Virus record (IMG/VR): IMGVR_UViG_3300025099_000076
Location: 1-34,630 of that record
DNA: 34,630 nucleotides
Source: a virus
Direction: 5' to 3' (one strand)
Shown: piece by piece, positions 461 through 33,300 of the stretch
How positions within the stretch are numbered: position 1 is the stretch's first letter
Layout of the letters: every line of letters begins with the position of its first letter
Notes under the pieces: generated by a model
Database searches by the model: none
Told to the model about the DNA's origin: nothing
What the model saw: only the letters and a program-made list of their open reading frames with translations
Position numbers and translations under genes: made by a program

Positions 461-3400
461 TTAACATGAATATTGATTGTTCCAAGGTCGGAAAATAGTT
501 GATTGAATAGTAGATTTAGCTCCTTCACCATCTTCAGCTTCAAAAGTTAATTCAATTTCAACATCATTACATCTTTTATATGTAGTACCATAGTAGTTTA
601 ATCCAGTATTAGCAGCACCAAACGAGGTTCCATTATCGTTATTAGTTGGTAAACCACCCCAATATAAATATTGATCTGGTATTTGACCACTATAAAACGC
701 GTCAAAACTAGTAGTTGGTTGAATTGAAGCATTTTCATAAGGACCTCCAAATCTATCTAAAGAGTTAATGTTAAAAGATTGCGCTGGACTAACAGGTAAC
801 CACCAAAACCAAGCTTTTACATCCATACCTATGTATAATCCAGCAGTGGATTGGTCTCCATTGTAATCAGTTGTAGCATTTAAATTTTCACAAAGCTGAT
901 ACAAATTATTTGCACATGGAATATCATTAAAACCAACAACAGTAGCAGAAAGTAATGATAATGTTAAATCTCTTTTCTTATCATTATTAATTGCTCCGTT
1001 GTCAATAAGATTTCCATTAAATACTCTACTACTCGATGGAAAAGTACCACCTGATGTACTACTAGGTAAAGCCACTCCCGCAAGAGGAACGCCGTATCCA
1101 TTATTCCAATCCGGTGCGTATCCAGTTTGTATAGCTGGTGGAGAGTAATTAGTGTTAGGTTTTGAATTAGATAACACAGCGGTAAAGTTAAAATTTAAAG
1201 CTGTATTGTTATATACAAATTTTAAATAAAAAGTATAAGTAAACAATTGTGGATCAAACCCGCAAAATCTATCTTTAGTGTTTCTAATCTTAAATCTACC
1301 AGCGAAGTCAGGAACAATCGCCCATCCTGAAGACGGAGTACCATTACCATCTACTACACTTTCTAAAGTACATATAGTATTAGGATCTAAAATAGGGATA
1401 TTGGCCGCATCTAATGGAAAAAATAAATTAGTAACATCAACTGGTGAAGTATTATTAGCGTTCACTTCGTTTAAGTCAAATTTTATATCGCTAACAGCAG
1501 TTGCTATGGGAAATATATCCCCATTGATTACGTCAAAGTTTAATTCGCTAACGTTACCTGTTGTTGTTGTCTCCCAAAAAATATTTAAATTAGAAAATGT
1601 AGGTTTAGTTTCAAAAACTGTTAAAGAAGGAACCATTCCTTCATCTCTTGTTAAACCTATTTTACCATTAGTTGCAAGTATACCAAGTAATGGATTTTCT
1701 TCAGACTTATAAATAGTTCCAGGAGGATTAAACGTAAAAGTGCCACTATTAACCCACGCAGCAGTATTTATGGACTGATTCAATGTCACTTTAGAATCGC
1801 CAGCAGAAGTAGAATCTTCATAATAACTTAAAACATAAACTTCATCTGTTTCATCTATTAAAGTATTTCCATTTAAATTATCTACTGCTGTAACTAAAGA
1901 GCCTACATCTACATTATCTAGAAACCCAGACAATTGTTGAGTTGCAGAACTTGTTCCAGCACCTCTTAATGGTGCAGATGGTCTTTCGTTAGTTACTCCA
2001 AAATCATTTAAAGTTCCTAATGTTACTACTTTTTCTAAATTAGTTCCAGGATAATATTGTCTATTACTTACACTTCCACCATCAAACACATTTTCTACTC
2101 TATAGGAAAGAAAAACTGAAGAAGAAAACCCTCTTTGAGTTGGAGCGATATCATTTAAATCTTTAGGCACTTTGTTTATATTATCACCAAAAACACTTAC
2201 TGTTGCTGTTACATTAGACGTTTCAGCTGTAGATAATATACCATTGTTAAGTACTCCAGGTAAATATACATTGTAATAATCTTGTTCTTGCTGTTTTATT
2301 ACTACCGCATAAGAATAAAATCCTAATAAATTTGGTTCTACACTTGGTTGAAAAACAAACGTTGCATCTCCACTCCCAGGAGTTGATGGATTTTCTATTG
2401 TAATAATATCCCCATCTTCATATCCTATTCCATAGTTTACTACTATTGGTAAATCTTTAGTATACACAAAATAACCATCCGCATCGACAATCCCTTGAAT
2501 TTGTAATCCTGTTCCCGAACCACCTAAACAATCATATATATTTGGAACTACTGTAGGAGGATAATTTCCTGGAGTAGCTCCCGCATAAAGATTTGTAATA
2601 GCATTGTATGATCGTTGATAACCTTTAAAAACTCCTGGATATCCACTAGGACCTTGCTCGGGGATAGGTTGATTTATTAAAACACTTATTTCATCACCAG
2701 GCCATGTATTTGTAGCTGTGATAAGATCTATGGTACTTTCAGAAAATGGATGAAAAAATGTTGATCCTTTATATGTTACTCCAGTTCCAGGATTTGTAGC
2801 AAGTTCGTCTAAAGATGATAAAATAACATCACTCGCTCTTCCGTATCTGTCTCTAAGCAAAAAACCTGCTTGATATGTTCTATTTTGTTTAACCGTATGG
2901 TTATAATATTCTTTTATTTGTTCAATAGAAGATTTTGTTCCAACACCAACTTGATAATTTAAAGATTCAATACTTGAGTGCTTATCAATATAATTTCCAT
3001 AAACAACTCTATTACCTGTTACAGATTGAGTTTGAGCTTTTATAGGTACTTTATCACTAGTTCTGGTTAATTCACTTTCTGGAAGAACTCTGTAAGGAGC
3101 TCTAGATTGATAAGTATATTTTATTTTGTCTGTAGTATTATTTGAAAACTCAGCACTAGTTATAGTATCTAATACTTTTAAAGTTGTTTCATTGTCATCT
3201 TTATATATTATTTCTATAGCTTTTATACCCATACTTCTTGAAGCATTGTCCCAAGATTTATTTATTGCGTTGTCAATAAAATCTGGACATGGTATGATTA
3301 AATCAATTTCTGTTATACGATTTTGAACAAAATCCACGTCAGTAGCATCATATGCTCTTTGTTGATCTGGGTATAAAAAATAGCCATATTGATCAGGTTG

Positions 3401-23197: not shown

Positions 23198-23454
23198 AAA
23201 ACTATAATTACATCTGATTCTTTTATTACTGTATATGTATCGTCTTTTATTTCAATAATATCTCCTGCAAACTTATCGTAGTATATATGGTCTCCAGTTT
23301 CTACTCCATTGACTTCTGTTCCGATACTTTGTATCTCAGCTTCTCTGTATCTTACGTCTTCTCTATCTTTTTCACCAAGTAGTAAGCCGCTAGTTGTTTT
23401 CTTACGGGTTTCTTTCTTGGGAATTATTACTATATATTTACCTACTGCTTTCAT
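23194..23454 (-). CDS. groES: GroES-type co-chaperonin, 86 aa
   Basis: The protein shows the GroES plan: N-terminal strand (KYIVIIPKKETRKKTTSG), mobile loop with the hydrophobic tripeptide (SGLLLGEKDREDVRYREAEI) that binds the GroEL apical domain, then GTEVNGVETGDHIYYDKFAG and the last strand VIKESDVIIVL. At 86 aa it is slightly shorter than the E. coli protein (97 aa). It caps the GroEL ring during folding. It overlaps groEL by 4 bases, directly downstream, so the gene order is groEL then groES, opposite to most bacterial operons. Confidence 0.85.
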   Translation of the reverse strand: MKAVGKYIVIIPKKETRKKTTSGLLLGEKDREDVRYREAEIQSIGTEVNGVETGDHIYYDKFAGDIIEIKDDTYTVIKESDVIIVL

Positions 23455-24998
23455 GCTCTTAAATTATTAATTACACAATCAGTAGATAATATAGTAGTAG
23501 CCACAGAAGCCGCATTATTCAAAGCGCTTTTGGTAACTAGTAAAGGATCAATTATCCCGGACTTTACCATACTTACTTTTTTACCTGTAACCACATCCAA
23601 TCCTTCACCCTCTTCCATTATACTTGGTAGAGTTGTGATACCAGCGTTATTTAATATAGTTTTAAATGGGGCTTTAATTGCTTCTGCTAACACAGCTTCT
23701 CCCTCGTTTTCAAGGTCCAATACTGCAATTGCATTCATTAAAGCTATACCACCGCCAGGAACTATACCTTCTTTAATTGCGGCTTTTGTAGCACATATAG
23801 CATCTTCTACTCTATCTTTCTTTTCTTTCAACTCCACTTCAGAATTTGCACCAACTTTTACAATGGCTATTTTAGATAATAACCGTGCTAGTCGTTTTTC
23901 ATGTTTAATCTTTAAGTTAGGATTTTTAGTTCCTTTTACTTTTGATTTTAATTCTTTAATAAGAGCTTTAACTTCGTTAGATTCTGTTGATACTTGTATA
24001 AGTGTTTCTGACCTTGTACTAACCGCTTTATCACAACTTCCTAAACAGTGTTCGTCTATAAGATCCATGTCGTCACCTAAATCTTCATTGATGAGAGTAG
24101 CTCCTGTAAGTAAACACAAATCATCTAATGTATCTTTTTTGTTTAACCCATATATAGGTGCGTCAATGATGTTTACTTTTAAATTACCTTTTACCTTATT
24201 CATAGCCAGCGCTGTCATTACTTGAGGATCAGCATCGGCAATTATCAACAATGAACTTTCACTAGAAGGTTGCATTACGTGCTTTAACACATGCTCTATT
24301 TTTCTTATACTTTCTAATCTACTTTCAATTATCAACACTTTAGGATTTTCTAATTCTACCGTGTCGTTTATCTTGTTGGTAACAAAATGTGAATTTTGAA
24401 AACCAGCTTCATACTGTACACCTTCAATTGACTCCATTTCTGTCGAAGGTTCATCATGTGTCTCCATCATTACTATTCCCGTTAGGTCCACTGCTTTAAA
24501 AGCGTCACTAATTATTTTACCTAACTCTGAATCATTATTGGCTGATATAGTAGCTACTTGGTTTATTTTATCTTCATCTACTTTGGATGAAATCTTCTCA
24601 AGGTACGACACTACTTTAGTAACAGCCAAATTAATACCATCTTTTATTTCTCGCGAATTTCCCGATTTTATCGCCTCATATGCCTCTTGTAATATGGCGT
24701 GCGCTAAAACCGTAGCAGTCGTTGTTCCGTCACCAGCTTCTTTTACTGTTTGACGAGCTGCTTCTTTTAAAAGCTTTGCACCCATATTTTCCACTGGGTC
24801 TAGTAGTATAACTGAATTCGCTACAGTTACACCATCTTTAGTTATTTGAGGATTTCCTTTGCCATCTTCTAGTATGACACACTTGCCGCTAGCCCCTAAT
24901 GTAGAGCTAACAGCTTTAGTGAGTTTATCTATTCCTTCAAATATTTTATTCTTAGCATCATCCCCAAAGTTGAGGTGCTTTACTATCGTTTCATTCAT
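23451..24998 (-). CDS. groEL: GroEL-type chaperonin, 515 aa
   Basis: ATP-site motifs are intact: ITKDGVTVANSVILL, EAGDGTTTATVLAHAIL and RVEDAICATKAAIKEGIVPG, including the equivalents of the catalytic Asp52 and Asp398 of E. coli. The apical domain has EGVQYEAGFQNSHFVTN and DAPIYGLNKKDTLDDL. The C-terminus stops at CVINNLRA, about 30 residues shorter than E. coli and without the Gly-Gly-Met tail. The equivalent of the GGVAVIKVG segment, whose glycines form a domain hinge, reads LSKIAIVKVG, so the hinge Gly pair is replaced by Ser-Lys. It probably folds phage capsid proteins together with the adjacent GroES. Such genes occur in a minority of phages. Confidence 0.92.
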   Translation of the reverse strand: MNETIVKHLNFGDDAKNKIFEGIDKLTKAVSSTLGASGKCVILEDGKGNPQITKDGVTVANSVILLDPVENMGAKLLKEAARQTVKEAGDGTTTATVLAHAILQEAYEAIKSGNSREIKDGINLAVTKVVSYLEKISSKVDEDKINQVATISANNDSELGKIISDAFKAVDLTGIVMMETHDEPSTEMESIEGVQYEAGFQNSHFVTNKINDTVELENPKVLIIESRLESIRKIEHVLKHVMQPSSESSLLIIADADPQVMTALAMNKVKGNLKVNIIDAPIYGLNKKDTLDDLCLLTGATLINEDLGDDMDLIDEHCLGSCDKAVSTRSETLIQVSTESNEVKALIKELKSKVKGTKNPNLKIKHEKRLARLLSKIAIVKVGANSEVELKEKKDRVEDAICATKAAIKEGIVPGGGIALMNAIAVLDLENEGEAVLAEAIKAPFKTILNNAGITTLPSIMEEGEGLDVVTGKKVSMVKSGIIDPLLVTKSALNNAASVATTILSTDCVINNLRA

Positions 24999-27002: not shown

Positions 27003-27044
27003 GTGACAATAGCCCCTTACTCAGTATATTTAGGCCTTATGTCA
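27003..27044 (+). promoter_or_regulatory. sigma70-like promoter element, copy 1
   Basis: GTGACA (27003-27008), 16 bases, TATATT (27025-27030): five of six matches at both the -35 and -10 consensus. It shares TGACAATAGCC with copy 2 at 28652 and, beyond the -10, a CCTTATGTCA box (CCTTTTGTCA in copy 2). TGACA and TGTCA form inverted arms. It would drive the plus-strand block. Confidence 0.5.
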
Positions 27045-27349: not shown

Positions 27350-27562
27350 ATGAAAACTGTAATTAAAAAACGATTTGTGATCGCTAACTCACTACTTGGT
27401 AAAGGTTTAACTATTCAATTCACGAATAATAAAGGTGTAACGTATAAGTACGATCACGACAAAGTGTTTGCAATGAATCAAGAATTGCTACTTAAAATGA
27501 ACTGCTTCATTAAGTATGGTAACTATACGAATAGTAATAAACTACCGAGCTGGGCTAAGTAA
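27350..27562 (+). CDS. small protein of a two-member family, 70 aa
   Basis: This is the first gene of the plus-strand block. It contains KRFVIANSLLGKGLTIQFTN, TYKYDHDKVFAMNQELLLK and CFIKYGNYTNSN. It is clearly paralogous to the 82-aa protein at 29478-29726, which shares KRFVI, SL.G, T.TFTN, Y.YDHD and YG.YTNSN. It is a compact beta-rich protein without signal or membrane segment, superficially KTSC-domain-like, though I would not assign that domain. The leader is A/T-only (AAATAAATAAT-ATG) with no Shine-Dalgarno sequence, as for most genes here. Probably expressed early from the elements just upstream. Confidence 0.7.
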   Translation: MKTVIKKRFVIANSLLGKGLTIQFTNNKGVTYKYDHDKVFAMNQELLLKMNCFIKYGNYTNSNKLPSWAK

Positions 27563-28570: not shown

Positions 28571-28651
28571 CCTCAACACTTAAAAGCCCAGTTAGTTCTC
28601 ACTGTTCACTGGTTTATCAAATATGAATTTATGTAGCACAAGCTTAAAACT

Positions 28652-28699
28652 ATGACAATAGCCTGTTATTCCCTATACTTATAACCCTTTTGTCACACT
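28652..28699 (+). promoter_or_regulatory. sigma70-like promoter element, copy 2
   Basis: ATGACA (28652-28657), 16 bases, TATACT (28674-28679), sharing TGACAATAGCC and the downstream CCTT(A/T)TGTCA box with the copy at 27003. It lies 99 bases before the 39-aa gene in a 227-base gene-free stretch (28571-28797). The rest of that stretch is AT-rich with no other structure I can support. Confidence 0.5.
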
Positions 28700-29477: not shown

Positions 29478-29726
29478 ATGAATAACTTAACAACTAAAAG
29501 ATTTGTGATTAGAAAATCACTAATAGGTAACGATGTAACAATTACATTTACTAACAAGAAAAACGAGACGTATACTTACGATCACGATGAGATTTACTCA
29601 ACTCATCAAGAGAAATTTGAGTCAATGGCGTGTTTTCAAGAGTATGGCTCGTACACTAATTCAAATGCAGTACCTAAATTCTGCAGAGAAATGAGTGAGG
29701 TTGAAAAACCAGAGATTACTGAATAA
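29478..29726 (+). CDS. second member of the 27350 family, 82 aa
   Basis: It contains KRFVIRKSLIGNDVTITFTN, TYTYDHDEIYSTHQEKFES and YGSYTNSNAVPKF, then an acidic C-terminal tail absent from its paralogue. It shares KRFVI, SL.G, TFTN, Y.YDHD and YG.YTNSN with the 70-aa protein at 27350, so a duplication 2.1 kb apart is evident. The structured RNA candidate at 29733-29938 follows directly. Confidence 0.65.
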   Translation: MNNLTTKRFVIRKSLIGNDVTITFTNKKNETYTYDHDEIYSTHQEKFESMACFQEYGSYTNSNAVPKFCREMSEVEKPEITE

Positions 29727-29732
29727 GTAATC

Positions 29733-29938
29733 CACTATATATAAAGCTAAGATAGTGAGAAATGAAATTAGTCCTCTACGACGATAGAGTGAAATTAAAT
29801 TCGATCTCGAGTGAGTTGTAATCATTCCTTAGCTCAACAAGCTGAGATAAATATAGAGAAATTGGTATTCGAGGAATAACTCGATGTAAAAGCCTAGGGA
29901 AGTATACTCTCGAGCGGGTTGTAACCGCTCCTCAGCTC
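29733..29938 (+). ncRNA. multi-hairpin structured RNA candidate with duplicated hairpin
   Basis: The 241-base gap 29727-29967 contains six or more stem-loops in series: CACTAT/ATAGTG (29733-29757), CTCTA/TAGAG (29774-29789), GAGTGA/TCATTC (29809-29827), TTAGCT/AGCTGA (29829-29845), TCGAG/CTCGA (about 29869-29884) and GAGCGG/CCGCTC (29912-29930). The third and sixth are two copies of one 30-base unit (29806-29835 and 29909-29938) with identical 7-base loop GTTGTAA. Their six differences are transitions, and two stem pairs changed on both sides (T-A to C-G, A-T to G-C), plus a G-U to G-C. That is covariation within one genome. The region may be a small RNA or a 5' leader of the next gene. Confidence 0.6.
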
Positions 29939-29967
29939 TAAAAATTAACTAAATTAAAACTAAAATT

Positions 29968-30162
29968 ATGCCTTATAAAAAGAATTATTCTCAAATGACT
30001 TGGTCAGAAGCGTTTGACAATCACAGAAAATATGTAAATCAAGCTGAACTTGAACAACAAGTAATAAATCACTTAGACAATTACTCAGGTAATCCAAAGT
30101 GGACTAAACTAACTAAAGCTCAACAAGACGATCACTATGAAATTTTAACTCAAATACTATGA
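29968..30162 (+). CDS. small hydrophilic protein, 64 aa
   Basis: MPYKKNYSQMTWSEAFDNHR continues KYVNQAELEQQVINHLDNYS and TKAQQDDHYEILTQIL. It is helical and charged, with no signal or membrane segment. The structured RNA candidate ends 30 bases before it, so it could be under its control. It overlaps the next gene by 4 bases (ATGA). The function is unknown. Confidence 0.55.
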   Translation: MPYKKNYSQMTWSEAFDNHRKYVNQAELEQQVINHLDNYSGNPKWTKLTKAQQDDHYEILTQIL

Positions 30163-33127: not shown

Positions 33128-33300
33128 GTGACGGCTCAGTTTGGAAAGCGAGGTCAGGTGATGGGCTAACTTCTAGGGAAACTAGGGTTTGAAAATCTTG
33201 AGTGATTACCATCAGACTGTTCTAGACATGAGAGGTTCGAATCCTCTCTCTCGTTCAAAAAGATTTACACGAGGTAGATCTATAAACTATAAAATATATA
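33128..33300 (+). ncRNA. structured RNA candidate ending in a tRNA-type T-arm
   Basis: There is no convincing gene between 33128 and 33305. At 33230-33248 GAGAGG/CCTCTC forms a 6-bp stem with loop TTCGAAT, exactly the consensus T-arm of a tRNA (AGAGG-TTCGAAT-CCTCT). GCGAGG at 33148 could pair with CTCTCG at 33248-33253 as an acceptor-like stem over about 100 bases. Other hairpins are CTGAG/CTCAG (33124-33140, partly inside the previous stop), CTAG/CTAG (33173-33185) and TGAT/ATCA (33202-33213). GCTCAGTTTGGAAAGC (33134-33149) looks like a D-arm. I could not find a consistent anticodon arm, so this is not a normal tRNA; a tRNA-like, degenerate tmRNA-like or other structured RNA are all possible. 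Confidence 0.4.

Follow-up and report, generated by a model that had tools for sequence, protein, structure and literature searches.

The stretch of DNA analysed here (34,630 nt, referred to as the window) represents part of the genome of an uncultured phage whose terminase and portal proteins match PHROG families, its nearest named relatives being MW202828 (a podovirus) and phages of Flavobacterium and Cellulophaga. It also encodes a GroEL-type chaperonin on the minus strand (23451–24998; PHROG 5725, E-value 3 × 10−132). Within the early region an 82-codon gene on the plus strand (29478–29726), termed here the marker gene, is separated from a 64-codon gene on the same strand (29968–30162) by 241 bases that contain no plus-strand ORF, in agreement with the original prediction that no gene occupies this region. 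An RNA present in two copies lies between these two early genes, in a slot opened by the stop codon of the marker gene. Relatives of the 82 aa marker protein are encoded in more than 260 viral loci, and its sole match in Pfam was YonK, at a sub-threshold E-value of 0.044; a 70-codon paralogue of the gene is found upstream in the same early region (27350–27562). Homologues of the 64 aa downstream protein follow the slot in relatives that carry a pseudoknot and a tRNA-like element there.

Architecture of the tandem junctions

The slot contains two complete three-way junctions in tandem on the plus strand, copy A at 29745–29834 and copy B at 29840–29937, with a gap of 5 bases between them. Both follow a common plan, in which a 7 bp stem, P1 (AGCUNAG/CUNAGCU), is followed by a joiner starting with AUA, a second stem, P2 (GAGA/UCUC), bears a variable arm, and a 6 bp stem, P3, is closed by the loop GUUGUAA, after which we refer to the RNA as the GUUGUAA element. 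There are no unpaired bases at the boundary between P2 and P3 or at that between P3 and P1, and ∼12 unpaired bases around this compact junction are invariant across the copies known. In copy A the 5′ strand of P1 (AGCTAAG, 29745–29751) pairs with CTTAGCT at 29828–29834 and leads into the joiner ATAGT (29752–29756), the AUA of which is invariant in six of six copies; GAGA at 29757–29760 pairs with TCTC at 29805–29808 to form P2, with the variable arm between, and P3 is the hairpin GAGTGA-GTTGTAA-TCATTC (29809–29827, loop 29815–29821), placed where a tRNA would have its T-arm. In copy B, P1 is formed by AGCTGAG (29840–29846) and CTCAGCT (29931–29937), and P3 by GAGCGG-GTTGTAA-CCGCTC (29912–29930, loop 29918–29924). 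The GAGA at 29856–29859 could pair with TCTC at 29908–29911, but this 4 bp P2 is absent from the minimum-energy structure, being outcompeted by a local hairpin. A CCA-like tail follows each copy, CAA at 29835–29837 and CTA at 29938–29940.

Folding of 29727–29960 with RNAfold gave −53.7 kcal/mol (z-score −2.7), a value equalled or bettered by two of 200 shuffled sequences, and the minimum-energy fold of the whole region contains both domains. For P1 and P3 the mean pairing probability was 0.92–1.0 in all six known copies. The original prediction had described two 30-base units (29806–29835 and 29909–29938) that share CTCGAG, GTTGTAA and AGCTC and differ at six positions, all by transitions, with compensating changes in the stem. 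This description is exact, and to the compensating changes can be added the sixth difference (CTTAG/CTCAG), which is matched in the upstream strand (AGCTAAG/AGCTGAG), the units being no more than the 3′ portions of two full three-way junctions. What is duplicated is therefore not one hairpin among several stems, as had been supposed, but a whole junction of ∼90 nt.

Conservation and covariation

Using pattern and protein searches of IMG/VR, we found the GUUGUAA element in four further contigs of uncultured phages (L048/L053, L036, L045 and L047), so that the known sample comprises five contigs and six partly related copies, the loop being GUUGUAA in every one; in two of the genomes the element is in tandem, and the L047 copy is 55 nt long. 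With a covariance model, as had been proposed at the outset, the known copies, those of the four further contigs included, are recovered at E-values of 10−14 to 10−16 (copy A, 65.1 bits, 4.5 × 10−14), and copy B, of which the model finds the 3′ part, at 3.8 × 10−6. Nothing convincing beyond the known copies was returned from the loci searched with this model, nor was there any match in 35 related records.

Covariation was assessed in an alignment trimmed of the variable P2 arm and, in copy B, where the joiner is longer, of some joiner bases. All 17 pairs are kept in all six copies, each of the 102 pair cells being a standard pair, and seven of the 17 pairs carry changes on both sides; none of 500 shuffles reached these values, and slid controls were 34–47 % paired. 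Selection on the RNA structure, originally suggested by the two window copies, is hence confirmed by compensating changes in independent relatives. Three pair changes are one-sided, all of them yielding G-U on the plus strand and none A-C, which places the constraint on the RNA transcribed in gene direction. A role as a hairpin at the DNA level was disfavoured for the same reason, G-U pairs occurring on one strand only. As the four further contigs and the covariation together exclude chance, the GUUGUAA element is real and under selection as an RNA.

The L036 contig carries a single complete copy and breaks off within a second, in an arrangement nearly identical to that of the window: its positions 84–155 plus flank, compared with window 29733–29880, include ∼40 identical bases across the boundary of copies A and B. 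The flanking gene, in contrast, shares only 48 % protein identity with its window counterpart, which suggests recombination of the RNA. Judging from this sequence comparison, the RNA was likely exchanged recently between distant phages.

Searches for known families gave no assignment. No Rfam 15 family, riboswitches and phage RNAs included, matched the GUUGUAA element at the gathering threshold, and the best sub-threshold matches at relaxed thresholds (E-values of 0.3–5) were chance-like, nor did Rfam scans of relatives and of other slot RNAs yield a family for it; ARAGORN called no tRNA in the region, and the hammerhead core (CUGANGA/GAAA) is absent from all copies of the element. A DNA similarity search of 50,697 phage records returned no match, and wider viral scans with the GUUGUAA hairpin, the 5′ half, the 3′ half with any loop and two marker-protein profiles yielded only the same genomes among the matches listed. 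In a scan of genome contigs there were 60 single matches, none of which passed the structural descriptor as a relative, and a search of a single Flavobacterium genome came back empty, which is uninformative. An intrinsic terminator was rejected, there being no G+C-rich hairpin followed by a U-run within 29600–30100. We also discarded a kissing or pseudoknot interaction between GUUG and the tail (CAAC in copy A), as it is inconsistent across copies and the 13 bp stack leaves no linker.

An exchangeable slot and its occupants

In all five genomes the GUUGUAA element lies directly 3′ of the stop codon of a marker-family gene, and in L045 and L047 the last base of that codon is the first base of P1; the genes downstream differ among genomes. 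We read the slot in 125 distinct relatives, using shuffles as a control. tRNA-like elements were present in 25 slots and hammerheads with a complete core and all three stems in seven (shuffle mean 0 for both), whereas the shuffle mean was 0.75 for an element of the form TGACA..TGTCA (GUGACAAUAGCCUGUUACU..AAUAGGCUAAUGUCACAC), seen in 42 slots, and 2.05 for terminator-like hairpins, seen in 13. H-type pseudoknots also occupy slots, often upstream of a tRNA-like element. The absence or disruption in relatives that would have spoken against the original prediction did not occur where the element is present, although in the majority of relatives the slot is taken by another RNA. Where homologues of both window genes bound the slot, it holds the GUUGUAA element in two phages and a pseudoknot plus tRNA-like element in 24; as the same gene pair encloses either type, the RNA is exchanged as a cassette with the genes staying in place. 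The GUUGUAA element is new to Rfam and is a rare member of this interchangeable set of intergenic phage RNAs.

The hammerhead slots are those of L059, L066, L110, L119, L125, L337 and L343 (locus ∼3225–3300; core CUGANGAG..CGAAA..GUC), and one such region, compared with Rfam at a relaxed threshold, gave RAGATH-1-hammerhead (RF03152) at an E-value of 0.0087, below the gathering threshold. The TGACA..TGTCA element, usually followed by a second hairpin, also occurs in the window at 27004–27044 and 28653–28695, the latter copy having no Rfam match at an E-value of 5. An H-type pseudoknot (e.g. CCAGUUAGUUCUACUCGUUUACUGGUAAAUCAAAUAUGAACGAGU) is likewise found at ∼28590–28640 of the window as well as in the slots of L078, L084 and L121, sometimes in tandem; scans of the pseudoknot regions against Rfam returned no match.

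The tRNA-like elements of the slot (e.g. in L061, L074, L062, L383 and L370) comprise an acceptor stem, a GG-bearing linker and a T-arm, without an anticodon arm, and these T-loop elements covary too. Their commonest geometry (23 of 39), 7 bp plus 6 bp with a 7-nt loop, is identical to that of P1 plus P3. The readable tails, 25 of them distinct, are without exception C[ACT]A (background 5.4 %), located directly 3′ of the 13 bp stack or, if the stack is 11 bp, one base later; in two cases the tail overlaps the ATG of the next gene, and the elements of L356 and L370 abut it. ARAGORN called none in the 12 loci examined with it, and the L074 slot had no match in Rfam at a relaxed threshold. A further tRNA-like element was noted at 33147–33258 of the window (stem AGCGAGG/TCTCGTT, T-arm GAGAGG-TTCGAAT-CCTCTC, tail CAA and a long insert), with a shorter homologue at ∼4765–4830 of L325.

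As a control for the tail, we listed every structure in 1.1 Mb of these phages with 7 + 6 bp, a 7-nt loop and at least three G/C in the 5′ strand of each stem. C[ACT]A followed all 28 T-loop structures and all six GUUGUAA copies, compared with four of 51 structures with other loops; the difference between six of six and four of 51 has a probability of about 6 × 10−6 if copies are independent, a nominal figure that overstates the evidence as they are not fully so. The tail of the GUUGUAA copies is CAA or CUA (C[A/U]A in six of six) and in none exactly CCA. The element shares with the tRNA-like elements of the same slot a 7 bp stem on a 6 bp stem, a 7-nt loop, the insert point, the C[ACT]A tail and the flanking gene pair, and differs from them in having GUUGUAA for UUCGAUU and the P2 arm for a D-loop-like linker of ∼11 nt (AAUGGUUGGUA), in being duplicated and in lacking a preceding pseudoknot. 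Carrier genomes also contain T-loop elements elsewhere, and one in the genome of L036 (AGCTTG..GAGTGG-TTCGATT-CCACTC-G-CAAGCT-CTAAC) has the P3 stem (GAGTGG/CCACTC), the acceptor end and the tail (CTAAC) in common with GUUGUAA copies.

Candidate functions

The arrangement of an acceptor-like stem of ∼7 bp, a 6 bp P3 with a 7-nt loop and no joiner between P3 and P1 is that of a tRNA acceptor/T-stack. The original prediction had likened the loop to an anticodon loop lacking a T-arm, a hint better reversed, as the GUUGUAA hairpin sits at the T-arm site itself, stacked on P1, which resembles an acceptor stem and runs into a CCA-like C[A/U]A. The loop, however, does not follow the T-loop consensus UUCRANY in any of the six copies, and the insert, conserved as AUANN-GAG(A/G)-AA, holds no conserved GG of the kind found in D-loops. 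As such, RNase P and RNase Z cannot make their standard contacts at the elbow, and we do not class the element as a canonical tRNA-like structure, although it would act in the manner of one. Also counting against tRNA mimicry are the silence of ARAGORN and Rfam as regards a tRNA, a tail that is never CCA and a sample of five contigs with partly related copies. On balance, we give roughly even chances to the GUUGUAA element being a divergent tRNA mimic with a non-T-loop, which would direct cleavage or end formation of phage mRNA.

Four other explanations were considered, each of which we regard as less likely than a tRNA mimic. The stable fold and its position directly 3′ of a stop codon, in a slot that in 13 genomes holds terminator-like hairpins, would suit a passive structure that shields the upstream mRNA at its 3′ end or acts as a translational insulator between neighbouring genes, no enzyme being devoted to it; nevertheless, the invariant 7-nt loop, joiner and tail exceed the needs of a passive hairpin and no U-tract follows, making this role unlikely.

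The hammerheads of the seven slots, together with the ∼12 invariant unpaired bases at a compact junction, raise the question of whether the element is itself a new class of small self-cleaving ribozyme, with the junction and GUUGUAA loop as its active site and a cis role like that of the hammerheads; an enrichment of self-cleaving ribozymes in the vicinity of others of their kind has been reported (PMC10085705). Phage intergenic hammerheads (PMC3088659; RF03152) occupy the same slot and probably do the same job of transcript splitting, but the GUUGUAA element has a different junction without their CUGANGA/GAAA core, its tail and geometry fit tRNA-like elements rather than ribozymes, and no single-stranded cleavage site stands out as conserved. 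We therefore consider a new ribozyme rather improbable.

At least as doubtful is a cis-regulatory aptamer, whether in the manner of a tandem riboswitch, the architecture of which the tandem junctions with conserved cores resemble, or as an autoregulatory site for the product of the upstream gene, the family of which always adjoins the element; against this, genes of that family usually have other, unrelated RNAs behind them, the downstream genes vary and no Rfam riboswitch matched. An anticodon-arm mimic or decoy, which would titrate an anticodon nuclease, a synthetase or an enzyme of tRNA modification, is very improbable: the U33-UGU-A37-A38-like loop on a stem is invariant in six of six copies and tandem in two genomes, and resembles the anticodon loop of tRNA-Thr(UGU), a likeness that may be due to chance, but position 32 would be G, the hairpin stands where a T-arm would, its acceptor-like stem being followed by C[A/U]A, and the element is an mRNA-embedded cis element. 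The thrS operator of Escherichia coli likewise presents two 7-nt loops with UGU-like sequence in mRNA as anticodon-arm mimics; the GUUGUAA element, however, does not lie in a thrS leader and has its loop in the T-arm position.

If the GUUGUAA element is a tRNA mimic, the early phage mRNA would carry two of these in tandem on the plus strand. In each, the acceptor-like P1 would stack directly on the T-arm-like P3, the third arm would be inserted at exactly the site that the D and anticodon arms take up in a tRNA, and the 3′ strand would continue into C[A/U]A. The GUUGUAA loop would replace the T-loop and probably form a substitute elbow by docking on the conserved AUA and GAGAAA of the junction. 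Host tRNA-maturation enzymes would be the most likely readers. RNase P measures its substrates along the stacked acceptor and T stems and also cleaves mimics that are not tRNAs (PMC4919913); small substrates of the E. coli enzyme have been reported to require a terminal CCA (PMC5723415). Here RNase P might cut P1 on its 5′ side, close to A29745/G29746 in copy A and to A29840/G29841 in copy B, and a 3′ tRNase or CCA enzyme possibly acts at the tail. In this way the early transcript, which is polycistronic, would be severed or would receive a protected 3′ terminus just past the stop codon of the upstream gene. Plant-virus tRNA-like structures, tmRNA and the MALAT1 mascRNA offer tRNA enzymes an acceptor/T stack without being tRNAs (PMC4919913, PMC5723415); the GUUGUAA element differs from them in having no T-loop, in its intercistronic position in a DNA phage and in its CAA or CUA tail.

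For hammerheads that flank prophage genes, cutting of long phage transcripts into gene-length mRNAs has been proposed (PMC3088659), and a parsimonious explanation is that all occupants of the slot sever or terminate the transcript 3′ of the upstream gene, whether they cleave themselves, are read by tRNA enzymes or act as terminators; the GUUGUAA junction would do so as a tRNA mimic with a rebuilt elbow. A somewhat bolder reading, which we hold to be possible but short of even odds, is that an interchangeable RNA cassette follows a given gene, comprising tRNA mimics, hammerheads, pseudoknots and the GUUGUAA junction, the last being either a previously unknown substitute for the tRNA elbow or a new self-cleaving ribozyme, and cutting phage mRNA.

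We regard the exchangeable slot as the most interesting part of these findings, with the element itself best read as a form of tRNA mimicry. The swapping of self-cleaving ribozymes, tRNA mimics and the GUUGUAA junction at one intergenic position amounts to a natural experiment, suggesting a shared function and making the purpose of ribozymes between phage genes directly testable. The GUUGUAA RNA may mark where phage mRNA is cut or ended, and, if RNase P does cut it, it would be a tRNA mimic with an elbow that is not built from D- and T-loops.
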